This document shows, piece by piece, positions 24,914 through 42,425 of a stretch of DNA of 64,000 bases; the stretch's first letter is position 1; every line of letters starts with the position of its first letter. The DNA is taken from positions 434,001 through 498,000 of the forward strand of contig NZ_JANDJO010000001.1 of the NCBI RefSeq assembly GCF_024331145.1. The letters are read 5' to 3'. This stretch comes from Shimia sp. CNT1-13L.2 (GTDB taxonomy: Bacteria > Pseudomonadota > Alphaproteobacteria > Rhodobacterales > Rhodobacteraceae). The notes below the pieces were generated by a model. It ran no database searches. It worked only from the letters and a program-made list of their open reading frames with translations, and was not told where the DNA came from. Made by a program: the position numbers and the translations under genes.

Positions 24914-24960
24914 TGGTGCCCGGGGGCGGAATCGAACCACCGACACGAGGATTTTCAATC
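24914..24960. repeat. Attachment-site repeat, left end of island (attL-like)
   Basis: 47 bp identical to the 3' part of the tRNA-Phe gene at 42351-42397, in the same orientation (CCA end at the left). It is a partial tRNA: the sequence diverges immediately after the anticodon-loop bases. With the integrase next to the tRNA at the other end, this defines the left boundary of the island. Confidence 0.92.
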
Positions 24961-24994
24961 ACACTACCAATAATGAAATCAAGGAGTTATTGGT

Positions 24995-25020
24995 GAGTGT
25001 ATCATTTTGTGTATAACTTT
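24995..25020. repeat. TGTGTATAA motif near left end
   Basis: GTGTATC at 24997-25003 and TGTGTATAACTTT from 25008. TGTGTATAA is TTATACACA in reverse, fitting the DnaA-box pattern TTATNCACA. A closely matching pair occurs at 42270-42291 near the other end, so it may be an integrase arm site or a DnaA box. Confidence 0.5.
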
Positions 25021-25158
25021 CACTCGAAGAGATCAGAAATTTCGGTCAAGTATTTGAAATATCATCATCATTTTTCCACGAATAGATTCACACCCTCCCC
25101 AAGCCAGATACTCAAAAGCCCACGCTTAACCACTTGGGCCGGACCGCTTCCAATATGA

Positions 25159-26544
25159 TCAACCTTCCAGCTTTGCAGGGCGCCCATACTCGTTTTCCTT
25201 GTGCTCCATAAACTTTGGGGTTGCCGAAATGCGTGGATAAAGAGCCTTTTCGTGCTCTCTGATAGAACTGCAAAGTTTGTCATGCAGACCTCCAAGACGC
25301 TCAACATTCAACATATCCTGAGCGATGTTACGAAACACTCGGGCAAATGGTTGATTCTTGTAGTGCCTAAATAGTTGATCGAATTTCGTACTCACGCCCA
25401 GGTTAACTCCCGTGAAACCTACCGACAGTGAAAACTGCAGGCCATTGCCAGTGGACACGGCGTATTTCTTCATCAACTTTGCGCACGATTGGTCCACATA
25501 TTTCAGAACATTGTTGACCTCCTTGAACTTGTCCGCCGCAGACAAGTGAGAAAGGTTATGAAAAACGGTTCTACATTCTTTGAACTCGCGCCTGTTTCGC
25601 AGCTCTAACGCCAGCTCGATACACTGTTTAGGGTTATCTGTTTTAGAGATTAGGTAGGCTGTGAAGAAAGGTAGGCGAACTGCAAATTGAGCTTGCCCGC
25701 TGGGTTCAAGAATGGATGACAGCGTCTGTTGAGACTTCTCTTTGAGGTTTTGAAGTAGGCCAGAAACTTGAGACGGATAGTCAATCCGGTAACAACTCTC
25801 ACAGAAGGCGTCGCGAAGAGGAGCCAAGAAAACATCCGCACCTTCCATATGGGCGATTGCATTGTAGAAATGAGAGCGCTCAGCAGCCCAGCCATAGCCA
25901 AAAATCAGCCGATCCAAAGCGGTTTTTCCATCTTCTCCTCGGAATTGCGGGTTGCTTGTGCTGAAGGCGTGCACGAGATCCTTAGCATCACGAATTTCAG
26001 GCTGTTCAACTACATTGATCGCCGGGCTGTGATCATCGTCTGATGCAACCAGCTTGCGATCAGTTTCTTCGTTGCGGAATGCACTGTCGATTGCTTCCTC
26101 ATATCTTGGGCGCTTTGGATTAGTCACCAAATAAGAAAGTGTCAGATACTCGCTTGAAACCCAAACATCCCATCTCAATTGCGGGTCAATTCGCAAAGAT
26201 TCAAAGAAACTGACGACATCCCCAGCGGGCTTCGAATCTTCGAACGAAAATGTCATGCTACGTGCAAAATTAGCAGCATCTGCTGAAATTTCTGAGTGCT
26301 TGTCAGCATCGACGCTTGAGAAATTTATGAAGTCAAAGTTCCGAAGCCTTTTAGACCGATACTCTTCCTTGTAATCATCAACTCCTAACAACTGGTCGCT
26401 GAACAAGATTGCGGTCACAAGCTTTTCCAAACACAGAATATCGTTATCGATATAGTTCAGATTCAACGTCTGGCTGACGCCGGTGATGCGCTCCACTCCG
26501 CTCAGCGTGGCGTTATCAACTAGGATGCGACGGTTGGTACTCAC
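25159..26544 (-). CDS. Hypothetical protein, island orphan
   Basis: 461 residues, no recognised family. It is mostly polar and helix-rich, has no signal peptide or convincing membrane segment, and carries cysteines around CESCYRIDYPSQ (residues about 248-251). The start is GTG at 26544 with AGGA about 8 bp upstream; no ATG is available at the N-terminus. The N-terminus (TNRRILVDNATLSGVERITG) resembles a PIN-like strand start with an early Asp, which is only a suggestion. Composition matches the island. Confidence 0.65.
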   Translation of the reverse strand: MSTNRRILVDNATLSGVERITGVSQTLNLNYIDNDILCLEKLVTAILFSDQLLGVDDYKEEYRSKRLRNFDFINFSSVDADKHSEISADAANFARSMTFSFEDSKPAGDVVSFFESLRIDPQLRWDVWVSSEYLTLSYLVTNPKRPRYEEAIDSAFRNEETDRKLVASDDDHSPAINVVEQPEIRDAKDLVHAFSTSNPQFRGEDGKTALDRLIFGYGWAAERSHFYNAIAHMEGADVFLAPLRDAFCESCYRIDYPSQVSGLLQNLKEKSQQTLSSILEPSGQAQFAVRLPFFTAYLISKTDNPKQCIELALELRNRREFKECRTVFHNLSHLSAADKFKEVNNVLKYVDQSCAKLMKKYAVSTGNGLQFSLSVGFTGVNLGVSTKFDQLFRHYKNQPFARVFRNIAQDMLNVERLGGLHDKLCSSIREHEKALYPRISATPKFMEHKENEYGRPAKLEG

Positions 26545-26716
26545 TGGAAAATCCTATTGAAACTGACGCTTGGAGTTATGGGCGGTGAAACATGACCGCT
26601 TCGCCAAACACATCTCACTCTGCCGAGGTTGAGTCGACAACCTGCTGCCATTTCCACAGACGTCCTGAGGAAACCAATACCACTGAAGAAAATCTGAGTT
26701 AAAACGTTTCCACACT

Positions 26717-27121
26717 TCAATCCATCCACTTAGCGATAGCATCGTGAAGCATCCATGGGGAAGGAGCGGTGCACTTAACCTCTGTAGTCGAACTGGCGGT
26801 GAAATAGCACCATTCTTCATCATCCGAAGACCACTCGCCGATGATTTCACCATCGATGAGCAGCACGTCGCCGCTGAAAGAACCGTTGTGATAACCGGTC
26901 ATTATGATGCCGTGACGGACCATGCCTCCGGCATCAACCAGACCACAAATGGCACGAAACTGGCTACGTACAGATTCCAGAGCTTCGCCTGACAACACAC
27001 CGACTTCAAAGGTACGATACTTCACCGTACCGACGAAGCTGCCATTACTTTCGTCAGATGATATCTCACAGGACAAGTCGCCATATTCATCAACAATTTT
27101 TTGCATTGTTCCAATTTTCAT
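26717..27121 (-). CDS. Hypothetical small acidic protein
   Basis: 134 residues, beta-rich with acidic patches (SCEISSDESNGSF, GEWSSDDEEWCYF), no signal peptide and no family recognised. ATG at 27121. It lies between two other island genes on the same strand but with non-coding gaps on each side, so it may be a separate unit. Confidence 0.5.
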   Translation of the reverse strand: MKIGTMQKIVDEYGDLSCEISSDESNGSFVGTVKYRTFEVGVLSGEALESVRSQFRAICGLVDAGGMVRHGIIMTGYHNGSFSGDVLLIDGEIIGEWSSDDEEWCYFTASSTTEVKCTAPSPWMLHDAIAKWMD

Positions 27122-27195
27122 AGTTAGGGCAGTTTGAAATTGAGTATTTTCAATACCTCAAAGAAAGCGCCGAAATGGTGTTTGGAAAGATGATT

Positions 27196-28344
27196 CTAGC
27201 TCTGTCCCACCGGCTTCAATTGAATCACATTTGACCCAGAAGCTTCCAAAGAGCGGCCAAAAATCGCCAACTCTCCCGAACGCGGCAGAGACAACCTCTG
27301 ACGAACTTGTCCGAGCAGCAACTCGCTTCCATCTTCAATTGCTTCAATAGCACGCCGAAACATGCGCGGCTTCTCAAGAGGCATTTCCTTGTCGAAAGGC
27401 TCCCCCCGCTTGCCACGGTACCCATTCTTCGAGGCGCGAATATTCAATGCCCGTGCCCATTCAGAGTCGCAGACGCCTAGGTCCTGTGCGCGTTTGATTT
27501 GGGCAAGAATTGAAATCCCCCATTCTTGCTTATGTGAAGCAAACTCCTCCAAAGACGGATACTGTACGGTTCTCAAGAATGAGTCACGCGGGAAAAGCAG
27601 TGCGCCGGCAAATCTGTGCGCTTGTTTCTCGATTGCCTGATAGGTTTTGGCGTGGCGGACCTCTTTTTCAGAGACCGAGCCAAAGTGAGCCAGAACATGG
27701 TAGAGCTCATGCGCAAGATTGAAACGCATCCGTACCGCGGATGATTCAAGGGTGTTAGCACCGACAATTGGGCGTTGAATGTGGTCAGCCCATCGGGAAT
27801 ACCCAGATTGCTTCTCGTTCTCGATGTCGAAGGCGAGAACAGGGATACCAATATTCTCAAGTGCCAAACACATATCGGGAATTGGGTATGCACCCAAGCC
27901 CCAAGCGTCACGACAATGGTCGGCCAAATCTTCAATTTGCTCATTTGAAACAGCCGCCCAATTCAGCGGCCAATTCTCAAGACGAGGCAACTCAAGCCTC
28001 GGGAAATCAACATATTCACTCAAGATCCCAAAAGCTTCGGCTGCCCAGTCAATACGTTGCGAAGTCTTGTTTTGTGAGCGCAGCGGTTCAGACGCCTGCC
28101 GACGCCAGAAAACCGGACCACTCATCGGAGGAGGTGTTGGCCTCAGGAAAAACTGACGTGGGAAGGCTGTTCTTTCAACAATTGCGTCGAAGGTTTCCTG
28201 CTTAGGCAGCGAGTCACCAGACTCAAGAGCGGTCAACGCATTCGTCGAGATATCCAACATGCCGCTTAGAGCAGTTTTAGTTAACCCATGCGCTTCTCGA
28301 GCTTGGGTTAGCCGACCACTAACAAATCCTTCTACCCGCTTCAT
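27196..28344 (-). CDS. XRE-HTH regulator with ImmA/IrrE-type metallopeptidase
   Basis: 382 residues. HTH at about 11-60 (RLTQAREAHGLTKTALSGMLDISTNALTALESGDSLP), a linker, then an ImmA/IrrE-type peptidase with HELYH at 212-216 and a following His (VLAHFG) and Glu (EKQAHRFAGALLFP). In phage and ICE elements such proteins cleave repressors; elsewhere they pair with a partner as a toxin-antitoxin-like module. ATG at 28344 overlaps the stop of the next gene (28341), so the two are translationally coupled, with 28341-29060 upstream. Confidence 0.85.
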   Translation of the reverse strand: MKRVEGFVSGRLTQAREAHGLTKTALSGMLDISTNALTALESGDSLPKQETFDAIVERTAFPRQFFLRPTPPPMSGPVFWRRQASEPLRSQNKTSQRIDWAAEAFGILSEYVDFPRLELPRLENWPLNWAAVSNEQIEDLADHCRDAWGLGAYPIPDMCLALENIGIPVLAFDIENEKQSGYSRWADHIQRPIVGANTLESSAVRMRFNLAHELYHVLAHFGSVSEKEVRHAKTYQAIEKQAHRFAGALLFPRDSFLRTVQYPSLEEFASHKQEWGISILAQIKRAQDLGVCDSEWARALNIRASKNGYRGKRGEPFDKEMPLEKPRMFRRAIEAIEDGSELLLGQVRQRLSLPRSGELAIFGRSLEASGSNVIQLKPVGQS

Positions 28345-29060
28345 CGCTCAACGTCTTTCTCTCCCAGATTACTTTTCAGCGTAACTACGACACGGTCCTC
28401 CTGAGTGCGGCTAGCAGCTTGCACAGAATAGAAGTTCGACCAGTCAAGCATCGCGCTGAGCTCGCCGTTCATCACGTTTGCCTTGAAAAGCCAAGAGCTA
28501 AATGAAGCATCGGGGACAACGAGCCGCATCATTTCAAGAGCGGTATCTCTACGATTGAAACCACCCGACCTCATTCCATGTTGAACTACAGCAAGTATCG
28601 TATTTCGGGCGTCGATCCTCTGACGCCAGCCATCGCCGAGGTCCATCTCAAGTTGTCGAATGGCAAAGTGTGACGCCGCCAAGTCAGCTTTATACGCTGC
28701 ATGTTCAGGTCGTGCCGACAAATTGTCGATGGGCTCAGTTACCACTAAGAGTTGACCAATCTGGCCAACAACAATTTGCTGACCATTACATGCAAGTGAC
28801 TTCACCTGAAATGGAGTGCCATGGTCAGTGCATGAACGCATCAGCGCCCTCATCCCGCTGCTGCGCCGGGCCCGCCGAACCGTTTGCAGATCGATCCGGT
28901 CCAACTCGGAGTGCGGGCGAGTTATCGAAAATACGCCGGGAGGGCTGACAACATCCTCGTAGTTCTTTGCATACTCACCGCGAAGGGCATCTTGGAGCGA
29001 CGTCATAAAGGGTTCTTGGAGATCCCTCTGCAAGGTGTTCAATATTTCAGATTCGCTCAT
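28341..29060 (-). CDS. Hypothetical partner of the XRE/ImmA gene
   Basis: 239 residues (start taken at ATG 29060, MSESEIL; an in-frame ATG at 29078 is also possible, neither with a good ribosome site). Not recognised. It has RRARRSSGMRALMRSC and a central strand-rich region (PFQVKSLACNGQQIVVGQIGQLLVVTEP), no signal or membrane segment. First gene of a two-gene unit with the HTH-protease downstream, an arrangement that suggests a protease-controlled or toxin-antitoxin-like pair. Confidence 0.6.
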   Translation of the reverse strand: MSESEILNTLQRDLQEPFMTSLQDALRGEYAKNYEDVVSPPGVFSITRPHSELDRIDLQTVRRARRSSGMRALMRSCTDHGTPFQVKSLACNGQQIVVGQIGQLLVVTEPIDNLSARPEHAAYKADLAASHFAIRQLEMDLGDGWRQRIDARNTILAVVQHGMRSGGFNRRDTALEMMRLVVPDASFSSWLFKANVMNGELSAMLDWSNFYSVQAASRTQEDRVVVTLKSNLGEKDVER

Positions 29061-29728
29061 TAGACTACTCATCGGCATCAAGTTGAGCGGAATATTTCAC
29101 GAAAAACACCAAGTGACAAGGGGTGAGGCTCATTTTTGGCAATCCGGTAAGAACCCACCAAATCGTTTGGGCTAGTTTTTCGGTTGGATCATTGAGCTAT
29201 CGGCAGCGGTCCTCGGGTATCACGAGACGATCGCAATGATGCTCACGCAGACACCTTCCTCTCCCCAACGGAAGCTGCTACGACTGCACCTGACATGGCA
29301 GACGCGGCCATGTTGGGGCGTGGAAACCCCTTCTCTGACTAGGCCGAAACTCGGCTGAACACCTTTGACCTATGGTCGGGGTGCCTGTGTTATACAACAG
29401 GCCCCGGCTAAAGGCACAGGGTCCGTGTCAGAGCGGATTTCCAACACCCCGATCACCAGTCAACCGCGAGGGCGCTCGCAGATCGGGGCCTTATGCAGCC
29501 AAGTCGTGTGAATAGTATGCGTTTCGGCGTGGCTCGGTCCTGCGACAGCATTTGTGGCTACATAGCAGCTCACAAGCTTTCGAAACTATCTCTCACTAAA
29601 TTCTGTTGGCCTGTTCGCATTCAGGGGGGATCACCCTTTTGCCAAGGCTCCAGCCGACCAAACCTCTGTTGGAGGTTGGCAGGCCAATACCAGTGACCCG
29701 ACATCAATATTCAGGTGCATATCGACCC
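29061..29728. other. Non-coding stretch upstream of the secreted protein gene
   Basis: About 670 bp with no convincing gene; rich in inverted repeats, especially 29293-29488 (separate entry). Confidence 0.5.
29293..29488 (+). ncRNA. Candidate structured RNA with mutually exclusive helices
   Basis: Several perfect stems lie in under 200 bases: ACATGGC/GCCATGT (29293-29313); GCCGA/TCGGC with a 3-base loop (29343-29355); a 10-bp closing stem GGTCGGGGTG (29374-29383) with CACCCCGATC (29445-29454) enclosing GCCTGT/ACAGGC (29383-29402) and GGCAC/GTGTC; and CCCCGATC (29447-29454) with GATCGGGG (29481-29488) enclosing GCGAG/CTCGC. The last uses the same bases as the closing stem, so the two are alternatives. 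Strand is assumed to be that of the downstream gene; expression is unproven. Confidence 0.35.
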
Positions 29729-31315
29729 ATGAAGAAACTAACTATTTCAGCCCTTGTAGCATTTTCCCTAGCAACATTCGGTGTGGTTGGCCAAGGCGCT
29801 GCCGAAGCGATTCCTCAAACGCAACAGGCAGAGCAATCACGTTGGCTTTTGGAGGTCGCTTTCAAAAAGCTTTCGGAGCGCGACCGCATCCAAATCCAAC
29901 TCCATTTGGCCGAATACGGTCTGTACAACAGCACGCTAGATGGTCTTTGGGGAGGGAACACCGCTGCCGCGCTGAATATTGCCGCCGACATGATGGAACA
30001 AAACATGGGCGGCGAACTAAGCTTGATCACGTTGGATCGGTCAAAGGCCTTTCTCAAACAGTTTGTGGACGGATCGGCCAGCGCGTACATGTGGGGAGAA
30101 GGTGGCGAGTGCGACGGCTGTGCCGAAAGCGACCAGCAAATTCTGACTTCAACAGGTAACACAGTTTTCTTGCCAGAAAACTTTCGGTGCAACTCTATCC
30201 CTCGCACACGGGAGTCTGGAATTCTTGAAACGGGTAGCCCGCAATGGACCAAAGCCATGGACAAGGTCGATGCCCTGGTGATGTCCTTTGACCGATCCGT
30301 CCAACAAGGACGAAACATTAGCGCTTCCGACAGGCGTCAAATCGAAGAAATCATCAGCAGATATGAAATACCTTACGCGGCTGAAATGTATGGATACGCG
30401 CTTTACCAGTCAGGCGACCTCAAAAGAGCACATGAAATCTGGGCGACAGCTGCAATATACGGCGAACCCAGTAGCGCCTCGTTGCTGACGGTTTCACTGA
30501 TGGGAGGATACGACGAATTCAAACATTTGAAGTTCGAAAATTTCCCCTCAACCGAAGTGATCACACATTGCTTGCGCTTTGCAGCGAGCGAGGGAGTAGA
30601 GAACGCGAAACTTTGGCTGGCAGCCGGTTTCGTTGGAGATACAGACGTTCCTGAGGGCGTTCGAAATACTCTGGGGATCGATACCACCCAAGCCCGGTGG
30701 TTGCTTAACTCGCTTTCTTCGAACGCGAAAAACGAAATGGCAAACGACATTTCAAGCATTTTGGCGCTGGCTGACGCGGAAGATCAAAAAGAACGCTCCG
30801 CGCAAGAGCGTCAAGCTGCCAGTGCTTTACGAGAGTTAACCTCAAAATGCGACGATTTGGTCAAACTGAAAGGCATCTGCTGGGCGCAGGCGATCGATGA
30901 GATGGAAACGTCTCTCATTTCACAGGGGTACAAGTGTGATATCGGCCCTATCCGAGGTCGCGCCTGTGAAGCTGGCAAAGCAGAGGTTTACATTTCCGAC
31001 GTGGGCATTTCGTTCAATTGCACTGCATTTGAAATCTGCCCATACGATTTTGAAGAAGTTTCAAGCTTTCTCATTGAGCAGGGCTTAGTTGCATCGATGG
31101 AGAAAGGCCGAAGCTTTGAAACACCAAATGAATTTACGTCTATTCAACTTACCCTGTTAGGGTTTGATACACCCAGCCAGCCATACTGGCTTTTTTTCAG
31201 TTGTGGCAAAGGCCCAAAAGGGCAAGAGCTTTGCGTTGAGCAACCCGAGGGCGGTGAAGTCAGGATTGTACTGAGGAAGAACACCTATGGCGCTGCAACA
31301 CCCAGCTTTCAGTGA
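29729..31315 (+). CDS. Secreted protein with an N-terminal peptidoglycan-binding-like segment
   Basis: 528 residues. A lipobox-free Sec signal peptide (KKLTISALVAFSLATFGVVGQGAAEA) is followed by a region similar to peptidoglycan-binding domains (LAEYGLYNSTLDGLWGGNTAAALN, residues about 60-85), then an alpha-helical TPR/Sel1-like stretch (YEIPYAAEMYGYALYQSGDLKRAHEIWATAAIYGEPSSAS). Many Cys pairs (GECDGC, GYKCD, RACE) suggest an oxidising compartment. Function unknown. ATG at 29729, weak ribosome site. It precedes the reverse transcriptase by 120 bp on the same strand. Confidence 0.7.
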   Translation: MKKLTISALVAFSLATFGVVGQGAAEAIPQTQQAEQSRWLLEVAFKKLSERDRIQIQLHLAEYGLYNSTLDGLWGGNTAAALNIAADMMEQNMGGELSLITLDRSKAFLKQFVDGSASAYMWGEGGECDGCAESDQQILTSTGNTVFLPENFRCNSIPRTRESGILETGSPQWTKAMDKVDALVMSFDRSVQQGRNISASDRRQIEEIISRYEIPYAAEMYGYALYQSGDLKRAHEIWATAAIYGEPSSASLLTVSLMGGYDEFKHLKFENFPSTEVITHCLRFAASEGVENAKLWLAAGFVGDTDVPEGVRNTLGIDTTQARWLLNSLSSNAKNEMANDISSILALADAEDQKERSAQERQAASALRELTSKCDDLVKLKGICWAQAIDEMETSLISQGYKCDIGPIRGRACEAGKAEVYISDVGISFNCTAFEICPYDFEEVSSFLIEQGLVASMEKGRSFETPNEFTSIQLTLLGFDTPSQPYWLFFSCGKGPKGQELCVEQPEGGEVRIVLRKNTYGAATPSFQ

Positions 31316-31435
31316 GATAGCGAGTGGTAGATCAAGAACCTAAGGCCATTTGAACCAAGGCACCTTTTCCTTTCTGGATTTGCTCCTTCAAACTCCCATT
31401 TCTTGATGCCATAGTGCCTCAGCAAGCTTGGCATT

Positions 31436-32878
31436 TTGGTTAGAATTCAATTGACTTCCTTTTCTCTAGAACCCCGCCTCACCAGAGAGGTTTGGCAAAA
31501 ATTAAGAGAAGGGCCAGTTCCACTCGTTGATCCGACTGATTTTGGGAACATTCGGAGCTTTGTAGCTGAATACAACGAGCGACTTAAAAGCCGAAGCTAC
31601 GTTCCCAATGTGGTTCATGGCTACTTGGGTCTTCAAAAGGGGAACGGGGTAACACGATTTCTTCCAATCCTCACCAAGGAAGACATGGCAATATATTACC
31701 ATCTTTGTGGCTACATCGGCGAAAAGGTACTGAAGAAGGAACCTAACGTTTTTGGTGGTTGGCGTTCTATTCCGGTGACTCCCAGAGCGCCAAAAACGTT
31801 AACTCACACTAAGGATGAGATTGAGGCGAAGGCAGCTCAAGCGGGGTATTTCTTTGACACCTTCTCCGACACGATGTGGCTCGAGCAGTTCAAAAATTTC
31901 ACGCAACTTATCCGAGAACTGTCAAAACAAGCGTCTAGCGGGACTTACGTCGCAACCACCGACATAGCCAATTTCTATGATTCGATTGAACTTCCGCGTC
32001 TTGTCCAAAAGCTACGGCGTGATGTCCAAGGAGAGTTGCACGAGGAAATCGAGCTCTTGGAAATGTTCTTAGCGCTTTGGGATCGAAGGACGACTGGGTA
32101 CAGCCGTTCGTCAAAAGGTATCCCTCAAGAGATTATCTCCGATGGCTCACGCTTCCTGTCGCATTACTATCTACAAGATTTTGACGGGAAGTTCATGGAT
32201 TACTGCAGAAGGAACAAACTACTCTACGTTCGTTGGGCGGATGACATGTTGATTTTCGGGCCAAGCAAAAGGGCTTTGGAGCACGCGATCCACAGGGCCT
32301 CACGGATTCTGCTGTCAGAAGGGCTCAACCTCAATGCGCACAAAACAAGGATTCTTAGCCGTAATGAACTAGCACGCAATCGCGGCTTGGACGTCTTGAG
32401 CGCCATAGATTCAAGGAATGCCGCCGACTTTCGCAGGAAGTTGCGCTCAGCGATTTCATGGCATCGACAAGGAAACCAGCTACGCTTGGACACGGTTTTT
32501 CGAGCATCTCTTGGTTACACATTCAGGCTAGGTAAAAATGCCAAGACGTTTGAAAAGAATTTCCTATTTGAGACAGTAGACGAGAATCCAGACATTCTTG
32601 CAACGCTCAATGACGTCCAGTTGATACGACTGATTTCAATCGCAGATGATCCGAAGGAGATGTTTGTGAAAGTCAGAAGCTCTTGTCTGACTCGTCCATA
32701 TGCGGGAGCTAGAGCCAACTTCCTTCTGTTGATTAGAAAACATAGCAGGGGGCTTGTCCGCATAGGAATTTCTGAAAGGCTACAAAAATCCTCTGTTGAA
32801 ATGATCGCAAGAGAAAGCGGTGACAGCGTGATAATCAGAACCATCTGCGCTCCCCCAGCCTTGGCAGCCATCCCCTAA
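31436..32878 (+). CDS. Reverse transcriptase, unclassified (UG/DRT-like)
   Basis: 480 residues. RT motifs in order: A YVATTDIANFYDSI (D176), B KGIPQEIISDG (228-236), C YVRWADDMLIFG (D269, D270; an unusual RWADD version), D LNLNAHKTRIL. No maturase, HNH or Cas1 domain; the C-terminal about 170 residues are helical and may be the domain common to defence RTs. Start is uncertain: the frame opens with TTG at 31436, no strong ribosome site, and no close ATG. It could also be a retron-like RT, but no msr/msd has been seen directly upstream. Convergent with the K+-channel gene, 4-bp overlap. Confidence 0.85.
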   Translation: MVRIQLTSFSLEPRLTREVWQKLREGPVPLVDPTDFGNIRSFVAEYNERLKSRSYVPNVVHGYLGLQKGNGVTRFLPILTKEDMAIYYHLCGYIGEKVLKKEPNVFGGWRSIPVTPRAPKTLTHTKDEIEAKAAQAGYFFDTFSDTMWLEQFKNFTQLIRELSKQASSGTYVATTDIANFYDSIELPRLVQKLRRDVQGELHEEIELLEMFLALWDRRTTGYSRSSKGIPQEIISDGSRFLSHYYLQDFDGKFMDYCRRNKLLYVRWADDMLIFGPSKRALEHAIHRASRILLSEGLNLNAHKTRILSRNELARNRGLDVLSAIDSRNAADFRRKLRSAISWHRQGNQLRLDTVFRASLGYTFRLGKNAKTFEKNFLFETVDENPDILATLNDVQLIRLISIADDPKEMFVKVRSSCLTRPYAGARANFLLLIRKHSRGLVRIGISERLQKSSVEMIARESGDSVIIRTICAPPALAAIP

Positions 32879-33726: not shown

Positions 33727-33933
33727 TATCAATTCTTTCGAAAGGGTCGGCAGTAGCATCAAGTGCTTTAGGTGAGGTCCTCATTTCAAATCTGCACACA
33801 CTTCTACAAGGCTTACTCGCAAACCAGAAGACGTGCTTTTCCGATCCCGGACCCAAATTCGGTTGAAATGCAGAACGGTCTCTCGGATGCCTTCTACGAC
33901 AAACCAAGGTTTGCTTTGTACGGAGGGTCCGAA

Positions 33934-34581: not shown

Positions 34582-34805
34582 ATAGAGTAAGCCCAACACC
34601 TTCGTTACTTGGATCAACCACCCATCAAGCAACGACATGGACTTGGCTTGAATTCGCACTCTGGACGCTAGCCAGAGCGGGGTTGTCTCGTATCCCAAAC
34701 AACATTTAGCCATCTTCACACTCGCTCAGCATTCGCCTATCAACGAACCTAGAAGGCTAGCTGAAAGGCTCCGAGCCGATCACAGTTTTCGAAAAGAGGT
34801 TTTTC

Positions 34806-35696: not shown

Positions 35697-35758
35697 TCGA
35701 TAGGCCTTGTCTTCTTTGGGGCGGGAATGGCTATCTCTATCGCCAGCCTTAAGGCACT

Positions 35759-36382
35759 TTAGAACGGAATATCGGGGCCTCTGTGTTCTTCGAGCCGCAG
35801 TTCAGCCGAACGCTTGGTCCAAAATCTTCTACGCAGTTCAGACAGCTCCGGCAGGTCAGCCTCGTCAATCACACCGGGGAGGGCATCCAACATTTCCGCA
35901 GCATACTGCTTTTTGAGATACCGCCTGATGGTCATGGTGACATCACGGATCAGTGCGCCATACTTGTCCACGTACTGACGTGATACGGGAACGCCGCCAG
36001 CGGCTTCGGCTTCAATCTCGGCGGCAGAAAGCTTGTGCGATGAGATTGCCTCAGAGCACTGGGACACCAAGCTCCCAATCTCCTTGAGCCAGTTCGCAAT
36101 TTTGGGATCGTCAATTTCCGCCAACTTAGCGATGAGATACGCGCGGTTGAACAAGAACAACCGTTCTTCACCTCGTAGGTCAGCAAGGCTTCGCCTATCA
36201 ACCAACTTTCCCAGCTTGGCACCAAATGCTTCACACAGAGGCTCCCAGAAGAACTCACCAATCCATTCTCCATACGAAGGGCGTAGGGGCCTAGTAATCG
36301 GCCCATCAGCCCCACCAAGCAAAGCATCCAGATCAGCCAAACATTGCTGTGAATTCGTCTTGTAATGATGCTCTTTGGACAC
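35759..36382 (-). CDS. Hypothetical protein next to piPolB
   Basis: 207 residues (GTG start at 36382, GGGGG 8 bp upstream; TTG at 36397 is an alternative). Not recognised. Helix-rich and polar, ending RRRFWTKRSAELRLEEHRGPDIPF; contains RPSYGEWIGEFFWEPLCEAFG. It starts 33 bp downstream of the piPolB stop, so it is probably translated from the same mRNA and may be a polymerase partner. Confidence 0.6.
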   Translation of the reverse strand: MSKEHHYKTNSQQCLADLDALLGGADGPITRPLRPSYGEWIGEFFWEPLCEAFGAKLGKLVDRRSLADLRGEERLFLFNRAYLIAKLAEIDDPKIANWLKEIGSLVSQCSEAISSHKLSAAEIEAEAAGGVPVSRQYVDKYGALIRDVTMTIRRYLKKQYAAEMLDALPGVIDEADLPELSELRRRFWTKRSAELRLEEHRGPDIPF

Positions 36383-36415
36383 GAACAAATCCCCCAAATC
36401 TTTGATGAATACGAA

Positions 36416-39172
36416 CTACGTGGAAGCGGCAGAACGTGCCACTGTTTCAGATTGCTCAACGTCTAGGTTGAACGCCGCCACCGGCGTCAGAAACACATCG
36501 ACTTCTAGCAGCGGAAACAACTCCTGTTTCACCTGTTTCAAGACGGCCACGGTCTCGGCTGTTCGCGGCACCTGATGTGGGGTGAAGACGGTTTTCTTCC
36601 GAGCGTTATCCACGTCCGTCTTCACACATGGGACATCCAACTCGTCCGCCAGCACCTCGGCAAATTCCTTCGCCTTCAGCTTGGAGACATTTTCCAAGTG
36701 TTCCCGACCAAAGGCTTTGGGCTTCAGTTCATGTGTTCCGGCTTTTCTCAGTTTATGGGCGATGACCAAATCACGACGCAAGCGCTTTAGCGGGCCGTTC
36801 TCGGTTGCCAAATGCCGACCTGCATCACCTTGGGCTGCCAGCTTGCCTTCAAAGAACGAGGCAAAGTCTTGGTAGTCGGCAACGGATTTCAGGCAGTGAG
36901 GATTGCCTTTGTTGTATTGCGACCAGATTACGCGGGTGGTGTTGAACTGATCGACCGTTTCCCAAGGCTGTGTGGAGAAGGCCAGATGTTCACAGGTCTT
37001 GCCCTCGCCATAGGAGGCCAACACATCACCCGCCTTGTCGGGCTTCCGCTTCCAATCGAACTCCATCGATAACCGCTTGACCATTGTCTTATCCACGAAG
37101 TCCATGCCCTGTTCGTACATCTCGCGAATGCCCGTGCCCATGGTCACGGTCAGCGTGTCGGTGGGCTTGCGTTCAAAGAACAGTTTTGTGATCTCGGCAT
37201 TCTGTTCGGACTTGTTCAGCACGCCTTCAAGCTTGATACCGCCTTTGGCCAAAACAACCTTTTCGTCATCCTTGGGGTTCATGCCGGTGCCATCCCAATC
37301 GGAGGCCTCAGACGGCTTCAAGGTGGCCTGCCCACGGGTACGCCAGCCCACAGGCTGACGGATGATATGCTTGATCTCGTAGATACCCCATTCGCCAGCA
37401 AGCCGTCGTCTGGCGTCCAGATATCTTTGCCCCAAGGGGCCAGCATGAACAACATCCCGCATCTGTTGATCCGTGGCTGTTGTCAGAAAGCCGTCTGTCG
37501 TCACGCTGAAGATTTGAACGCTTTCGGGAAGGGCGTTCATGATTTCACCCAGCACACCCCGACAGAAAGCCGTGATGAAGGCGGCATAGACAGGATTAGT
37601 GATCTTGCTGGGTTCCAACGGCTTGGTCTCGGCATCCCGCAGATCGTATATCCGCCGCTCTCTCAACCCTTGAGCGGTTTTGCCATAGGTGGAATTCACA
37701 AGCTCTTTCCAGAAGAGGTTGTCCAGAGTCTTCTTGGGATACTTGGAACGTTCGGCAATGCAGTTGCGGGCAAAGCCTGAGAAGGGGCGTTTCGCGGGAG
37801 CATATTCCTCTGTCCGGCTGATAATCCTGTCAGAGTCGATCTGCCGACCTTCAACCAAACTGATCTTGCACCCAAGTCGTTTGGCCAAAAGGATTTCGCT
37901 GATGTGGGTAGTGCTGTTGCCTTTTCTTGGAAACAGCAAGCCATTCTCCGTTCGCACCGGCAAAACCGGATATCTCACGTCTTCTGGGAACTCGAAGTCC
38001 ACATTGGCAAAGGCCAGATCATCCACGGCAAAACGGGTAAGCAATTCCTCGGTGCTGCCTATCGCTCTGATCGTGTCCCAGTGAGGCGCACCGATAATCG
38101 CCATGGCCGAAGGATACGCACTCGTCAGATCATAATCGTACCAAACACCTTCTAGCGCAGGGCCAAACCAGAATTGCTCGTTGCGCCCCCCATGATAACA
38201 CTCGGTAAAAAAGTCCTCGTTCCAATGCAGCTTGCTTGTCGAGACAATCCGCTTGCGGGACTGAAAGCGATTGTTCTTCTTACTCCAATATTTCTCGATC
38301 ACCTCTTCCTTCGCCACGATGTCCAGAGGATGAACACCATGGCTTGCCCAATACTCTTGGATCAAATCAACGCCGATGGAGGTTAGCGTCACGGGCAGTT
38401 TGAACTTGCCAGTCTTTTCAAAATAAAGGCGGATGATACGTGAGGTGTAGTGGGCACAAATCTCAGCATCCCGAATGGCATAGTCTCGAAACAGCCGCCA
38501 ATCGCGCTCCATGAACACCGCCATATGCCGCTTCAGATACAGCTCTTCTTCCGGATCATCAGCGAGCTTCAACTTTTCAAATCCAAGGATATCGCCAAGC
38601 TGCGCCAGACTTCTGGCACCCGTAGGAGCCAGCGCAATCGTATCCCTGATCTTCACACCAAGACGAATGGCTTTCCGGCCTTTGCCCTGAGGCAGTTTGA
38701 CCGCAATGTCCTTGCTGACATTCATGAACAGGCTTCGAACGTTTTCGAGGTTCAGGCTGGCGCGTTTGTCCTCATCCTTGAAGTCGCTGAACCCCGGCAC
38801 ATCTGCTCGTGTGAAGTGGGCCACCAGATAGATATCGACGGGCAGCTTTAAACCCGGATGAGCACGGAAGCCCGCCGCCAAAGCATGGGTGACAAACTCA
38901 GATAGCGTCAGCCGATCCTCGTCCCGACGCCCTTTCGGCAGAACAATCCCCGACCAGCTTGGCTCTTCCCCGTCATTGCTTCGCGTTATCACCCTACAGC
39001 TAAACTGGTAGGACAGAACCTTGTTTCTGATCTCCACCAACCCATCAGCATTCACGAACTCTTCCCGCTGATACTCGGTATCAAAGCCAATAATCAGATA
39101 GCGGGGATAGGCCGATTTTGGATTGTTCTTCGGCAGAAACTGCTCTTTGCTGAATGTCATATTGGCTTGCAT
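36416..39172 (-). CDS. Primer-independent family-B DNA polymerase (piPolB)
   Basis: 918 residues. 3'-5' exonuclease: ExoI DTEY at 31-34, ExoII AHFTRADVPGF near 119-128, ExoIII YAIRDAE near 231-237. Polymerase: motif A YDYDLTSAYPSAM (345-357), motif B KELVNSTYGKTAQG (489-502), motif C SVTTDGFLT (556-564; TTDG instead of the usual DTDS) and RTRGQ (611-615; the KTRG-type motif in place of KxY). These variants fit the primer-independent clade, which initiates DNA synthesis de novo, and not protein-primed or replicative PolB. ATG at 39172; MTFSKEQ 4 codons later is the alternative. No terminal-protein gene is needed for this type. Confidence 0.88.
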   Translation of the reverse strand: MQANMTFSKEQFLPKNNPKSAYPRYLIIGFDTEYQREEFVNADGLVEIRNKVLSYQFSCRVITRSNDGEEPSWSGIVLPKGRRDEDRLTLSEFVTHALAAGFRAHPGLKLPVDIYLVAHFTRADVPGFSDFKDEDKRASLNLENVRSLFMNVSKDIAVKLPQGKGRKAIRLGVKIRDTIALAPTGARSLAQLGDILGFEKLKLADDPEEELYLKRHMAVFMERDWRLFRDYAIRDAEICAHYTSRIIRLYFEKTGKFKLPVTLTSIGVDLIQEYWASHGVHPLDIVAKEEVIEKYWSKKNNRFQSRKRIVSTSKLHWNEDFFTECYHGGRNEQFWFGPALEGVWYDYDLTSAYPSAMAIIGAPHWDTIRAIGSTEELLTRFAVDDLAFANVDFEFPEDVRYPVLPVRTENGLLFPRKGNSTTHISEILLAKRLGCKISLVEGRQIDSDRIISRTEEYAPAKRPFSGFARNCIAERSKYPKKTLDNLFWKELVNSTYGKTAQGLRERRIYDLRDAETKPLEPSKITNPVYAAFITAFCRGVLGEIMNALPESVQIFSVTTDGFLTTATDQQMRDVVHAGPLGQRYLDARRRLAGEWGIYEIKHIIRQPVGWRTRGQATLKPSEASDWDGTGMNPKDDEKVVLAKGGIKLEGVLNKSEQNAEITKLFFERKPTDTLTVTMGTGIREMYEQGMDFVDKTMVKRLSMEFDWKRKPDKAGDVLASYGEGKTCEHLAFSTQPWETVDQFNTTRVIWSQYNKGNPHCLKSVADYQDFASFFEGKLAAQGDAGRHLATENGPLKRLRRDLVIAHKLRKAGTHELKPKAFGREHLENVSKLKAKEFAEVLADELDVPCVKTDVDNARKKTVFTPHQVPRTAETVAVLKQVKQELFPLLEVDVFLTPVAAFNLDVEQSETVARSAAST

Positions 39173-39881
39173 GGAAACCTGAATTGCAGTGAGACTGAGG
39201 CAACGGCGTCGCCAAGTCAGAAATGGTAAAAGTTGGGCCACTACACCCATATGGAACTTTTACTATTTTTGCATTCCAATTCACAAGACCGGGGGAGAAT
39301 TCACCCCTCATTCCAGAGACTGTGGGACATTCTCCCAAATTTGCCAAACCGCCACCAATGCACCTGCATCGGCGTATAAATACCATCACACAACAACACA
39401 TACCGACCATATAAAGCCATATTGAACACAGCTCGTAGCTCTCTCGTATCAGGACAGCGATACAAACAAACACATAGCCAGCCCGAAGCGTCATGCGATC
39501 AGAAGATAATCTCCGTCGGACGGTGCAGAACCGAATTTAGTAGGTCAGCAGACATGACGTCATCGAAAAGTAGGGTCAGGAGACAGCGTAAGCCGGGGGA
39601 AGGATGAAAGCCCCCATCAGAGAGCCAGAGCAAAGAATTGTCATCACGAGACGGGGAAGTGCCGTCGCCGAGCTAGCCAAATTGCCATCCACAGGCGGCT
39701 AGTCCATCGGTCCGCTGTTAGAGCAGCACGTAGGCTGAGACCGGATAACCGCCAGCCGAGCTTTGGAAAGCAATCGTGTGTGGATGGTTTGTCAGACCTC
39801 TTGGTCTCACATGCTTCTCCTGAGCGGATAGGAAAAGTATGTTCAAAATCCAAATAATCCCAAATAGATACAAACGAAGTT

Positions 39882-39902
39882 CTTGATCATGAAATGATCA
39901 AG
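39882..39902. repeat. Perfect inverted repeat upstream of piPolB
   Basis: CTTGATCAT, loop GAA, ATGATCAAG: nine perfect pairs, tight loop, about 710 bp upstream of the polymerase start. Confidence 0.6.
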
Positions 39903-39984
39903 CCATGGTCCCAATGTTTGTCTATGGCTTCACTTCGTGAAGTGCTTCGCAGGTGCTTGAGAACTTTATTGGTTGGTTGGGCTG

Positions 39985-40036
39985 GGCGGGCTGAGTATTG
40001 AGTTCGGCCTTTGGCCAAACAGGCTTTCAGCCCGCC
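39985..40036. repeat. 10-bp inverted repeat with nested GGCC/GGCC
   Basis: GGCGGGCTGA pairs with TCAGCCCGCC across 32 bases; the loop itself contains GGCCTTTGGCC. It lies just past the stop of the DUF6641-like gene, so a transcription-end role is also possible. Confidence 0.5.
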
Positions 40037-40045
40037 ATCAGCATT

Positions 40046-40411
40046 TCATTTAGTAAACCGGCTGCGGATCGTGCTGGCGGCTTCCATCAACACATCGTCC
40101 AACTTACCCTCATCTGCCAGCGCCTTCAGTTTTTGAAGGTTCTTGGCAACGTCGGCCACATCCACACACTTGATCGCATTCAGGCCGGGGGCCAGTTCCA
40201 GAGGTGTCCGTCCATAACGGGGAGAGATGAACCAATTCCCATCATCAGACTTCCAAACCCATGTGCTGGTGATTGTGTTGGACCCATCATCGGGCACACC
40301 GGCCAGCTGCTTATCGACAGTAGCGATGAACTTCTGACGGCGTTGGGCAAACGGCTGGATCGCTTTCGGCTTCTCAGCGGCTTCAAGTTTGAACTGTTTC
40401 TCAAGTGCCAT
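40046..40411 (-). CDS. DUF6641-like small hypothetical
   Basis: 121 residues. N-terminal KFKLEAAEKPKAIQPFAQRRQKFIATVDKQLAG followed by WVWKSDDGNWFISPRYGRTPLELAPGLNAI and a helical end (LKALADEGKLDDVLMEAAS). This resembles DUF6641, a small family often carried near integrases; assignment is moderate. ATG at 40411 with GAGGAG upstream. Function unknown. Confidence 0.6.
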   Translation of the reverse strand: MALEKQFKLEAAEKPKAIQPFAQRRQKFIATVDKQLAGVPDDGSNTITSTWVWKSDDGNWFISPRYGRTPLELAPGLNAIKCVDVADVAKNLQKLKALADEGKLDDVLMEAASTIRSRFTK

Positions 40412-40551
40412 TTGGGTCTCCTCTTGTGACCACAACGGCGTCCCTTGGGTCACGGGGAGAGGGCAACGGCTCATGGGAGTACAAAGGGGTTTAATATCCC
40501 CGTTCCTGAGCTTACCAATTCAGTGAAACACTTGAAATCCAATAGGTTGTT

Positions 40552-40980
40552 ATGTCCGATCTAAGAAATTACTTACATCAGCCCGTGAGCTCTAAATTTG
40601 AAGATAACCTCAAGATCATAGCCGCCCACACCGTTTTGTCATTGCAAGCTCGAGTCCACAGAAAAGGCACTCAGGAAACCCGACGAAGAGAGATCAAGTC
40701 GAGAATGATAGATTTCAAGTGGTCCAATGGTAAAGCTTCAGCTTACTCGAAATTGGTTGAGAATTTGATCTCCACACTTACTGGAATTCACGGTGTTTCA
40801 AAGTTGTCCGCCAAATCATCATTCTGGGATGACTGGGAACAAATGGATACTGAAAAGCGCTTTCATAGGGTTCATGCCGAGCTTTTTGGCTTCACGACTG
40901 CAAGGCGGATTAACACGATTGTACAGCTCTGCAGGCATTTCAAAGTGAGGTACGGCAATTCTCAACCTCCATTTGAATAG
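40552..40980 (+). CDS. Hypothetical protein, island orphan
   Basis: 142 residues, basic N-terminal half (RVHRKGTQETRRREIKSRM), no recognised domain. ATG at 40552 with AATAGGTTGTT upstream. Divergent from the DUF6641-like gene, 140 bp gap. Function unknown. Confidence 0.5.
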   Translation: MSDLRNYLHQPVSSKFEDNLKIIAAHTVLSLQARVHRKGTQETRRREIKSRMIDFKWSNGKASAYSKLVENLISTLTGIHGVSKLSAKSSFWDDWEQMDTEKRFHRVHAELFGFTTARRINTIVQLCRHFKVRYGNSQPPFE

Positions 40981-41063
40981 AAAACTGCTCACTGTGCCAA
41001 AACTCGTAACAGCAAAGGTAGCGTTCGGAGACTTGAAAGCCAGCTAGGTTGAAAATTCCGCTC

Positions 41064-42251
41064 TCAATCATCACCGTTGGTCTGCAAGTTCTCAATCAAC
41101 TCCTTCGTTGGAGCCATCTTCTGCAAATAGAACCGCTCTAGCTGATCCACGGACGTCCCAGCATTCTTGGCCAGCGTATAAAGATTTACCCGTCCCTTGG
41201 AGCTTCTGAGGCGGGCTTGGATGGCATAGTGACGGAGGGAGTAGGGGGACAACTTTCTGTCTTCATCCACCAAATCGGCCTTTTCCAAAATGTGGTTGAA
41301 CAAACGGCGGGCTGTATTGATTGCGGTTCGACGGTTTGGGTACTCCGGCATCCACACATAGTCATCCCGATCTGGCTCCACCGGGTCAAATGGGTTCCGG
41401 TCCCCTTTGTAGATCACGACACCCAGCTTCAACGTCACACTGGTTCGCTTGCCTGTCTTGCCGCCACGGACAGAGATTTCCAAATGCGGCGGGTCAGTCA
41501 TTTCCTGAACGTCTTTGTGTTTCAGGCCGAACAACTCCCCTTCGGTCGGACGAAGGAAGCTGTGAACGACAAAGCGGAACATTCTGACATGATGGCCGGT
41601 GAGCTGAACACCACGCACCCTGTCGCCGCGTTTGGCACAAGCATTCGCGGCCTTCATGAATTGCCGATACTCGCTGTCTGAGAACGTGTGCCGTGGCGTG
41701 TCCACAGTTTTGATCTTTGGCATCACGGGCAGGACATTTAGAATCCCATCCTCGACAGCCAACGCCAATACCTTGCGGATAATGATCACATGTTTCGATT
41801 TGGTAGAATGGGCCAGAGGCTTTTTCCGGTTCCCGTCCAGATGTGTCAGGTAGTCACGAACCATCCCCGTGGTAATCTTGGTGACGTCATACTTCCCGAA
41901 ATAGACGATCAGACCATCCTTAGAACGGTTCAGGAGTTTGTTATCCCCCTCTGACCACTTTGACTGCCCCTTCTGCATTGCCATCAGTTTCTTGGCATAG
42001 TGTTCGAAGCTGGTAGCCTTGGTCTTGGCATGATCGCTGTTGGCCTTGCTTCGGAAGCTGTCGGCATACTCATAGGCCACTTCTGCCGCTTCGAGACGAG
42101 AGGTCTCCTTGGAAGACTTGGAAACATACTTTCCGGCAATCGGATCCCAGAGACGGATCAGCCAGTAAGGGCTCCGAGGCGTCAGGAGAATGGCCAGACC
42201 TTTTCGAAGGTGTTTGATCTTGAGTATTCGATTTTTGGATTCTTTGGCCAA
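41064..42251 (-). CDS. Tyrosine recombinase/integrase
   Basis: 395 residues: an N-terminal arm-binding region, a core-binding domain (about 75-180) and the catalytic domain with R234 (SFLRPTEGELFGL), K265 (RGGKTGKR), LRH at 339-341 and Tyr375 (LERFY). It recombines the 47-bp repeats, which are the tRNA-Phe 3' end. The reading frame opens with TTG at 42251 and has no internal ATG before about residue 90, so TTG is probable though its ribosome site is weak. Lies 99 bp from the tRNA, the usual place for an integrase that targets a tRNA 3' end. Confidence 0.93.
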   Translation of the reverse strand: MAKESKNRILKIKHLRKGLAILLTPRSPYWLIRLWDPIAGKYVSKSSKETSRLEAAEVAYEYADSFRSKANSDHAKTKATSFEHYAKKLMAMQKGQSKWSEGDNKLLNRSKDGLIVYFGKYDVTKITTGMVRDYLTHLDGNRKKPLAHSTKSKHVIIIRKVLALAVEDGILNVLPVMPKIKTVDTPRHTFSDSEYRQFMKAANACAKRGDRVRGVQLTGHHVRMFRFVVHSFLRPTEGELFGLKHKDVQEMTDPPHLEISVRGGKTGKRTSVTLKLGVVIYKGDRNPFDPVEPDRDDYVWMPEYPNRRTAINTARRLFNHILEKADLVDEDRKLSPYSLRHYAIQARLRSSKGRVNLYTLAKNAGTSVDQLERFYLQKMAPTKELIENLQTNGDD

Positions 42252-42269
42252 ATCAGACCCGTCGGAAGA

Positions 42270-42291
42270 GTGTATAACTGTGTATAACTTT
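42270..42291. repeat. Tandem 10-bp GTGTATAACT repeat near right end
   Basis: Two exact copies (42270-42279 and 42280-42289), the second containing TGTGTATAA. It matches 25009-25020 near the left end. Possible integrase arm sites or DnaA boxes, just upstream of the integrase start. Confidence 0.6.
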
Positions 42292-42350
42292 TACGGACGA
42301 AATCCGAAGGTTTCAACGAACCAAATAAATCAACAATTTCAGTGATTTAG

Positions 42351-42397
42351 TGGTGCCCGGGGGCGGAATCGAACCACCGACACGAGGATTTTCAATC
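42351..42397. repeat. Attachment-site repeat inside intact tRNA-Phe (attR-like)
   Basis: 47 bp identical to 24914-24960. Runs from the CCA end through the T arm, variable region and anticodon stem 3' side to the anticodon loop. Confidence 0.92.
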
Positions 42398-42425
42398 CAC
42401 TGCTCTACCCCTGAGCTACCCGGGC
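42351..42425 (-). tRNA. tRNA-Phe (anticodon GAA), integration target
   Basis: Minus-strand cloverleaf: acceptor GCCCGGG/CCCGGGC, D arm GCTC AGGGGTA GAGC, anticodon loop TTGAAAA (GAA), T arm with GGTTCGATTCC, and encoded CCA at 42351-42353. The tRNA is intact; only its 3' 47 bases are duplicated at the island's left end, so integration preserved the gene. Confidence 0.96.

Follow-up and report, generated by a model that had tools for sequence, protein, structure and literature searches.

An integrated pipolin at tRNA-Phe with a conserved folded noncoding element upstream of its polymerase gene

Within the window, the whole stretch of 64,000 nucleotides of Shimia DNA analysed here, a 17.4-kb element with a family B DNA polymerase gene lies against a tRNA-Phe gene. 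What is this element, is it able to move, and what might maintain it? The pipolin itself belongs to a known kind. The novel part is a folded noncoding element, which is taken up after the boundaries, the polymerase and the relatives of the pipolin.

Boundaries and polymerase of the element

The repeat search returned a perfect 47-bp direct repeat with a spacing of 17,437 bp (Table 1). The last 47 nt at the 3' end of an intact tRNA-Phe(GAA) make up the right copy, the left copy is that fragment alone, and the whole assembly holds two copies; a perfect repeat of this length at a tRNA 3' end in two genome copies rules out a chance match. Both the coordinates and the tRNA 3' end of the 17.4-kb element proposed by the first-pass annotation were thereby confirmed, and its tyrosine recombinase was found as an integrase with a Phage_int_SAM_5 domain. 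Direct repeats overlapping a tRNA gene together with a tyrosine recombinase, the mark of integrated pipolins, are both present. G+C is 0.503 within the element versus 0.613 and 0.61 in the flanks.

The polymerase frame (36416-39250, minus strand) matched DNA_pol_B_2 of Pfam with an E-value of 1.5e-9. The ATG at 39172 is the likelier start; from it the predicted 918-aa protein begins MQAN, comparable to MQAK in the related L009-L011. According to a passage in PMC7544198, piPolBs lack the first Asp of motif C. Motif C of the window polymerase reads VTTDG, the same as in E. coli pipolins, and TTDG or VTDG was present in all 32 piPolB rows examined, in sharp contrast to DTD in phi29, PRD1, Cp-1 and E. 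coli Pol II. A 36-row tree, which includes the E. coli and S. epidermidis piPolBs, split the piPolBs, that of the window among them, from the phi29, PRD1 and Cp-1 PolBs and E. coli Pol II with support of 80/91. The tree was built without L006 (split gene), without L028, L029, L090, L091, L093, L094, L095 and L099 (partial or broken), without L087 and L088 (taken as the same contigs as L014 and L015), and without L085 and L096 (the window itself).

Motif C and tree position both argue for the primer-independent PolB candidate of the first-pass annotation, and the phylogeny that it called for gave no placement outside the piPolB clade. A protein-primed PolB would fit the PHROG and Pfam matches, which are to generic DNA polymerase families only. 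We rejected this reading as extremely improbable on the strength of motif C and the tree: the window polymerase has neither the DTD motif nor a place beside the phi29 and PRD1 PolBs, and the element ends in direct repeats within a tRNA gene, with no inverted repeat listed at its ends by the repeat search.

Table 1 Features of the element in the window
Feature	Position	Strand	Evidence
Left attachment repeat, 47 bp, 3' fragment of tRNA-Phe	24914-24960	-	Repeat search
461-aa protein	25159-26544	-	phrog_13435, E 2.6e-49
RmrA-like protein (HTH + Peptidase_M78)	27196-28344	-	PADLOC model, E 2.7e-88
RmrT-like protein	28341-29081	-	PADLOC model, E 6.2e-7
Second conserved noncoding block	29273-29502	.	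93.5% identical to L011
569-aa cargo protein	29606-31315	+	Homologues in pipolins L011 (51%) and L012 (42% over 171 aa)
Reverse transcriptase, UG13b group, candidate anti-phage DRT	31436-32878	+	PADLOC model
Ion-channel protein	32875-33762	-	Ion_trans_2
Serine recombinase, resolvase type	33772-34581	+	81-87% identical in six relatives; present in 7/8 tRNA-Phe-group relatives
296-aa protein	34806-35696	+	phrog_29321; 77% identical copy in L008
212-aa protein directly downstream of polB	35759-36397	-	67% identical copy in G248
piPolB, about 918 aa (open frame to 39250)	36416-39172	-	Pfam, motif C, tree
Structured noncoding element, highly conserved; modelled core 39666-39790	39471-39856	Listed -; neither strand favoured as RNA	Conservation, covariance model
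142-aa protein	40046-40474	-	Weak DUF6641 match, below Pfam cut-off; phrog_31551, E 1e-7
Tyrosine recombinase / integrase, 395 aa	41064-42251	-	Phage_int_SAM_5 (Pfam); 73-88% identical in 8/8 tRNA-Phe-group relatives
Right attachment repeat, within intact tRNA-Phe	42351-42397	-	Repeat search
tRNA-Phe (GAA), integration target	42351-42425	-	Intact gene

Relatives and mobility

E. coli pipolins (excerpts of PMC7385651; L100, L101) resemble the window element in having piPolB, tyrosine recombinases, direct repeats over a tRNA gene and varied cargo; they use tRNA-Leu, however, and their piPolB is about 30% identical to that of the window. Plasmid pipolins (S. epidermidis pSE-12228-03 and Fusobacterium plasmids) share piPolB and a serine recombinase family protein, yet these are circular and carry a relaxase, whereas the window element is integrated and has a tyrosine recombinase, with no relaxase among the window proteins scanned. 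Alphaproteobacterial pipolins have already been published (PMC9710591, ExplorePipolin, Fig. 3 legend); like the window element, they are piPolB-bearing elements in Alphaproteobacteria.

Eight relatives make up the tRNA-Phe group (L008-L012, L023, G248 and G374). All eight carry the integrase and seven the serine recombinase, and intact tRNA-Phe adjoins the integrase in six, which weakens the earlier suggestion that the tRNA target may be new. Second copies of the 47-bp repeat were found in L011 and L023, and one copy in L010. The element core is integrase, piPolB and serine recombinase, with variable cargo.

Across the family piPolB is patchy (10/394 genomes). Within the genus, each of the 24 other genomes gave a match to tRNA-Phe and none to piPolB; six of them hold an additional 47-bp repeat copy, 10.9-55 kb away on the same contig. 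The variable occupancy at this tRNA that the first-pass annotation looked for in relatives was thus observed. No empty site sharing the left flank turned up among the genus genomes, because the only match to this flank was in the window's own genome.

We consider it highly probable that the locus is an integrated pipolin, presumably mobile via its 47-bp repeats and replicated by piPolB, with variable cargo and a folded element that may serve its upkeep. In the mechanism that we propose, the tyrosine recombinase would join both repeats and release a 17.4-kb circle, in which piPolB would start to synthesise DNA primer-independently and multimers would be resolved by the serine recombinase. The circle could then be reinserted into tRNA-Phe, and every insertion would restore the tRNA, since its 3' end travels with the element. 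The cargo would probably shield the host, and hence the element, from phages.

Excision of the window element is consistent with its intact recombinase and both repeats. Circular forms are likely in this lineage, since the contig ends of one relative overlap: L013 is an 8,837-bp contig with two identical 77-bp ends, giving a circle of 8,760 bp that encodes piPolB and a tyrosine recombinase. It seems unlikely that the element is a defective or fixed remnant, a one-time pipolin now sitting in the chromosome as an immobile genomic island. Two repeat copies in the whole assembly mean that there is no third, junction copy, as a remnant would have it, and piPolB is broken in several relatives, with a remnant bearing stops in G093, one stop in G299 and G285, an interrupted gene in G374 and a gene split by IS66 in Pseudosulfitobacter plasmids. 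In contrast, the polymerase, integrase and serine recombinase of the window are open and intact, as are both repeats, and the identity of the two recombinases to those of relatives (Table 1) also speaks against a remnant.

The folded noncoding element

Upstream of polB lies a noncoding stretch of about 385 nt in which relatives share 83-91% identity, in sharp contrast to the four-fold sites of polB, which are only 38-44% identical. Host sequence was ruled out by its single copy in its own genome, and coding sequence by the lack of any frame open throughout; the longest open run, 99 codons, is unshared among the three copies checked.

With a covariance model we found diverged copies in pipolins L013 and L014 and further copies in G165, G130 and G378, genomes without any piPolB match, where they sit in integrative elements. 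The element is absent from L009, cut short in L023 and not found in the more distant pipolins searched, including the E. coli pipolins L100 and L101, where 46-58 bp separate polB from the preceding gene; it is therefore no general requirement of piPolB replicons. Four of the seven genomes with the element have piPolB, compared with 10/394 overall (P 7e-6; the piPolB and folded-element searches covered 394 genomes each, assumed to be the same 394). We do not count this as evidence, since the model was trained on pipolin copies, those four included, so that the co-occurrence is not independent, and since the window's genome was chosen for having both.

In helix H1, spanning about 100 nt, 8 of 9 pairs covary, and 0/86 swapped partners pair as well as the cognate ones; the pseudoknot helix H2 is weaker, with 19/86. 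These pair counts lean toward structure, as alignments A8 and A10 were fitted to the covariance model, and L116 and L117, being 95.6% identical, are not independent. Folded singly, the window copy does only slightly better than its shuffled versions, with z of -1.8 on one strand and -0.9 on the other. The numbers of G-U and A-C cells are nearly equal, 11 and 10, so that neither strand is favoured as RNA.

On the element, all Rfam matches besides the tRNA were below gathering scores. RF01712, the Methylobacterium-1 RNA, is an orphan Rfam motif published in 2010 (excerpt of PMC2864571), and it overlaps the folded-element copies of L013, L014 and L116-L118. All five reached its gathering score (46-56 bits versus 40), compared with 0/21 further loci (other pipolin loci and L123, a set that does not take in L008, L010-L012, G248 and G374, the other close relatives of the window copy), and the window copy gave no match to it even at E up to 5 or 10. 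The RF01712 model spans 103 nt of the other strand and takes in only part of the element, whereas the conserved stretch here is about 390 nt with a further long-range helix. A literature search gave no paper with both 'pipolin' and 'noncoding RNA'.

How, then, should the element be read? Tentatively, we regard it as possible that the 385-400-nt element forms one class of pseudoknotted nucleic acid, with the orphan Methylobacterium-1 RNA as just a part of it, that it is a replication origin or copy-control RNA for alphaproteobacterial integrative elements, pipolins among them, and that it is a module swapped between those with and those without piPolB. If the block acted in cis on the piPolB gene alone, as a leader or operator, this would suit its position in the window, L008, L010, L011, L012, G248 and G374, where polB follows downstream at a distance of a few hundred bases to about 1.5 kb. 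The L014 copy, however, lies about 3.3 kb past the polB end and the L013 copy on the integrase side, neither upstream of polB, and G165, G130 and G378 have the block without piPolB. This reading is therefore improbable: since diverged copies occupy other positions in further pipolins and are also present in genomes with no piPolB match, the element is apparently not simply a leader of polB. We are slightly more doubtful still that it is an origin of transfer used in trans by the host's conjugative plasmids, as its occurrence in integrative elements with and without piPolB and the lack of a relaxase among the window proteins scanned would allow. A covarying helix with a span of about 100 nt would be unusual at a nick site, and the window copy matched none of 72,556 plasmids.

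As a maintenance module, the folded element upstream of polB would most likely serve as a replication start or in copy control, either as noncoding RNA or in the form of folded single-stranded DNA. Pipolin replication is unsettled, and what piPolB does biologically is still described as unclear in a passage of PMC9710591. A noncoding stretch outdoing the polymerase in conservation provides a candidate cis or RNA component that can be tested, and the lineage includes a relative, L013, that seems to exist as a small circle. The orphan motif RF01712 also gains a genomic setting, that of integrative elements.

Cargo genes

The conflict-type cargo noted in the first-pass annotation was borne out by matches to the UG13b reverse transcriptase, RmrA and RmrT models of PADLOC, a set spanning known and candidate systems. 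The UG13b model matched residues 11-447 with an E-value of 5.9e-126, which places the reverse transcriptase in that group; a literature search on UG13 listed no paper that by its title concerns a bacterial reverse transcriptase, and none on anti-phage activity. Among the papers listed in a search on RmrA and RmrT, one bacterial genome study (PMC11883136) contains both words. A HEPN domain in the 296-aa protein, under the Pfam cut-off at E 0.0067, is not claimed. DNA similar to the gene of the 142-aa protein lies at the same position in L008-L011 and L023.

Conservation and distribution of the folded element

In a DNA comparison, the noncoding DNA upstream of polB is conserved better than polB itself. 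In alignment A5 (columns 53-457), identity between the window and L008, L010, L011, L012, G248 and G374, all carriers of related pipolins, is 83.3-90.9%, and no reading frame spans the block. For polB, identity in six relatives (L008-L012 and G248, with G374 left out) is 64-76% at the protein level and just 38-44% at four-fold sites. The block is absent from L009, and in L023 it is cut along with the start of polB. Plain-DNA matches occur in 5 of 394 family genomes, namely the window's own (G000), G248, G374, G285, which has a piPolB piece and matches over 70 nt at a contig edge, and G375, which is without piPolB and matches over 27 nt.

A 125-nt covariance model (R1), run over 47 sources (784 kb), recovered all seven training copies as well as the cut L023 copy (E 0.18), and it found two new copies in L013 and L014 that are 80% identical to each other over 400 nt. 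A second model (R2), with these two copies added, matches seven of the 394 family genomes: four with piPolB (G000, G248, G374, G284), which are training copies or share a contig with one, and three without a piPolB hit (G165, G130, G378). A class-wide sample of 308 genomes gave two matches, one in the genome of the window and a weak one in G1065 (29.7 bits); over 43 sources, pipolin loci and others, R2 matches were limited to the window, L013, L014 and the truncated copy of L023 (E 3.1).

Coordinates of features in the window and in fetched loci
Feature	Stretch	Position	Strand	Remarks
Direct repeat, left copy	window	24914-24960		perfect, 47 bp
Second conserved noncoding block	window	29273-29502		93.5% identical to L011 over 231 bp
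Folding part of second block	window	29285-29420	one strand	folds better than shuffles, z -4.0; remainder of block does not
Cargo protein, 569 aa	window	29606-31315		recurs in pipolins L011 and L012; no family above cut-off
PolB ORF	window	36416-39250	-	Pfam DNA_pol_B_2, E 1.5e-9
polB ATG, likely start	window	39172
Inverted repeat	window	~39215-39272		AAAAATAGTAAAAGTT ... AACTTTTACCATTTCT, directly upstream of polB
Folded block	window	39471-39856		modelled core 39666-39790
Direct repeat, right copy	window	42351-42397		3' part of tRNA-Phe
tRNA-Phe(GAA)	window	42351-42425	minus	intact
New R1 copy	L013	264-386		E 5e-4
New R1 copy	L014	16036-16156		E 3e-3
piPolB element	L013	1-8837		8,760 bp, apparently circular
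Folded-element copy beside ChlI-type gene	L118 (G378)	9898-11198		gene apparently cut at its start
piPolB split by IS66 element	L006	11608-17152		integrase and mob genes adjacent
piPolB piece	L120 (G374)	10986-13232		second piece in L095, ~11 kb apart

Structure, strand and relation to an orphan RNA motif

Compensatory changes were assessed in alignment A10, in which 12 sequences were fitted to the model. The arms of the long-range helix H1 read CCATCCACA with TGTGGATGG in the window, TCCCATT with AATGGGA in L013, TTCCGTT with AACGGAA in L116 (from G165) and CTCCAAT with ATTGGAG in L118 (from G378); both sides change in 8 of 9 H1 pairs and in 4 of 5 pairs of the second hairpin. Altogether 94.7% of cells pair, as against 28-48% in slid controls. 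Cells changed on both sides number 54 vs 20.3 after shuffling, and the covariation score is 0.645 vs 0.269, with 0 of 500 shuffles as high in either case. The number of double-change pairs is not exceptional, since 43 of 500 shuffles reach it, shuffled alignments have more of the further pair types, and H1 carries two A-C mismatches in L010 and L011. When arms were swapped between subfamilies, they paired as well in 0 of 86 cases for H1 and in 19 of 86 for the pseudoknot helix H2. On this covariation and these swaps, H1 and the hairpins are well supported and the pseudoknot moderately so. In A5 alone (7 sequences, the structure taken mostly from its own folding), 12 of 71 pairs show double changes, 5 of the 12 in a terminator-like hairpin at the edge.

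Several observations count against an RNA. Folded as a single sequence, the window copy does not stand out on either strand (z -1.8 and -0.9), G-U cells (11) and A-C cells (10) are about equal in number, RNAalifold energies are alike on the two strands (-102 and -107 kcal/mol), and no sigma-70-like promoter was found in 39100-40560. The copies in L013, L014, L116, L117 (from G130) and L118 overlap Rfam RF01712, the Methylobacterium-1 RNA, on the opposite strand with 46-56 bits, the gathering score being 40. A table row of PMC2864571, the source of this orphan motif, gives it as RNA 'Y' and cis-regulatory 'n', from Methylobacterium and marine sources. Neither the window copy nor any of 21 further loci scanned reaches the gathering score. 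The conserved stretch is ~4 times the length of the RF01712 model, and in L117 the match stops short of the H1 5' arm. The folded element is an extension of this orphan motif, and it probably serves as a maintenance element. As far as the literature was searched, this is the first link between the motif and pipolins or kindred integrative elements; no paper combining 'pipolin' with 'noncoding RNA' was found, and a single one names the motif.

In L014, L116 and L117, the folded element lies between a gene of 97-99 aa and the integrase side, and L013 has a 96-aa homologue of that gene on the same side. In G165, an integrase-like gene adjoins tRNA-Arg, and there is a second, small tyrosine recombinase; the G130 integrase shares 87% identity with its L014 counterpart. 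For the two larger integrases, in G165 and G130, Pfam matches lie under the cut-off. In G378, the folded element adjoins the ChlI-type gene, a scan of 7 proteins there showed no integrase, and the site is perhaps an insertion into comM.

L013, a metagenome contig of 8,837 bp, begins and ends with the same 77 bases, and its 78-base ends differ; this pattern typically marks a circle that was assembled with 77-mers. Its piPolB and integrase are 60% and 36% identical to the window's. A 199-aa protein resembles, by eye, the L116 protein called phage integrase by Pfam, and a 630-aa protein matches phrog_16088 (E 9e-46), a family without assigned function; its start looks flagellin-like, and we take it to be cargo. 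The bin label is Flavobacteriaceae, yet the piPolB pairs with Thalassobacter (100/99), and the bin seems to be mislabelled.

The polymerase

The first-pass annotation had proposed PolB as a piPolB candidate, and the phylogeny agrees. In a tree of 36 rows (32 piPolB and 4 other PolBs), the nearest neighbours of the window are L008 (Pseudophaeobacter) and G248 (99/98), all three within a roseobacter-group clade, and all piPolB rows separate from the other four (80/91); the deeper order is unsure because of long basal branches. Motif C reads VTTDG in the window and DTD in the PolBs of phi29, PRD1 and Cp-1 and in E. coli Pol II; every one of the 32 piPolB rows examined has TTDG or VTDG. A motif C without the first Asp is described as a piPolB trait in PMC7544198. 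The likely start was chosen because relatives L009-L011 begin MQAK. By eye, the inverted repeat upstream of polB also has a near-perfect form in L012, and it looks like an operator.

To include the best-studied kind of pipolin, E. coli was searched with the piPolB of G685, a further member of the phylum, and 299 of 5,426 complete E. coli genomes matched; among 10 listed matches, several are annotated merely as hypothetical protein. Two E. coli loci fetched (L100, L101) have piPolB near tRNA-Leu with a tyrosine recombinase in between, in agreement with the description in a passage of PMC7385651. A tblastn search of 72,556 plasmids gave 46 matching records, including plasmids of Fusobacterium and pSE-12228-03 of S. 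epidermidis; PMC9710591 names plasmid pipolins from the latter species.

Borders, relatives and the tRNA-Phe site

The pipolin part adds a member to an already known kind. It would be a replicon that integrates and excises, with its own, predictedly self-starting polymerase and apparently defence-type cargo. The window lies on contig C1 of a 4.1-Mb genome, and the borders given by the first-pass annotation were recovered exactly as the two repeat copies. G+C is 0.503 within the element vs 0.613/0.61 in the flanks. No excision junction is assembled, since the whole assembly holds exactly the 2 known copies of the 47-bp repeat.

A scan of 84,980 species genomes yielded 22 piPolB loci and is not exhaustive because it uses peptide patterns. 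piPolB occurs patchily, in 10 of 394 family genomes, 4 of 398 from the phylum, one locus in IMG/VR and a single genome among 60 relatives, namely that of the window itself. The eight nearest relatives (L008-L012, L023, G248, G374) have integrases 73-88% identical to the window's. An intact tRNA-Phe adjoins the integrase in six; L008 and L010 have a partial copy only, in L010 because the contig begins there. A second repeat copy delimits elements of 12,047 bp in L011 (47 bp) and 14,102 bp in L023 (41 bp); L010 also has a copy of the repeat, and none was found within the stretches searched in L009 and L012. More distant pipolins adjoin tRNA-Asn, -Lys, -Thr and -Gly; L014, L024, L026 and L027 among these have a tRNA-end repeat. 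Six of the eight relatives encode a serine recombinase that shares 81-87% identity with that of the window, and G248 also has one (7 of 8); in G374, none was seen in the main stretch (L120). The conserved core thus comprises integrase, piPolB and serine recombinase. Content outside the core varies: the window carries a UG13b reverse transcriptase, RmrA/RmrT and an ion channel. In a scan of 10 cargo proteins from four loci, L010 had an NB-ARC/TPR protein and a cytosine methylase, L023 had glycosyltransferases and a transposase, and the three proteins of L011 had no family.

A joined-flank query was compared with 25 genomes of the genus, the window's included. Its tRNA-Phe part matched in all 25, and piPolB is absent from the 24 others. 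Further repeat copies lie on the same contig, 10.9-55 kb off, in 6 of the 24 (G002, G003, G008, G009, G011, G019) and on another contig in four more (G006, G010, G020, G022), so other elements seem to use the same site. Among 10 proteins scanned near tRNA-Phe in 10 genomes, three are phage-type integrases (G006, G009, G023), three resemble ordinary host genes (G014, G017, G018) and four are without Pfam match. The window's left flank has no match in any other genome of the genus, and therefore no strict empty site with identical flanks was found among the 24; genes of the farther left flank (11050-14362) occur, among stretches fetched, only in G017, ~16 kb from its tRNA-Phe.

Near the second noncoding block, the cargo protein is just ~51% identical to its L011 counterpart. 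Pseudosulfitobacter plasmids account for 30 of the 46 plasmid records, with piPolB matches in two places; L006 is the one fetched. In G374, too, piPolB lies in two pieces.
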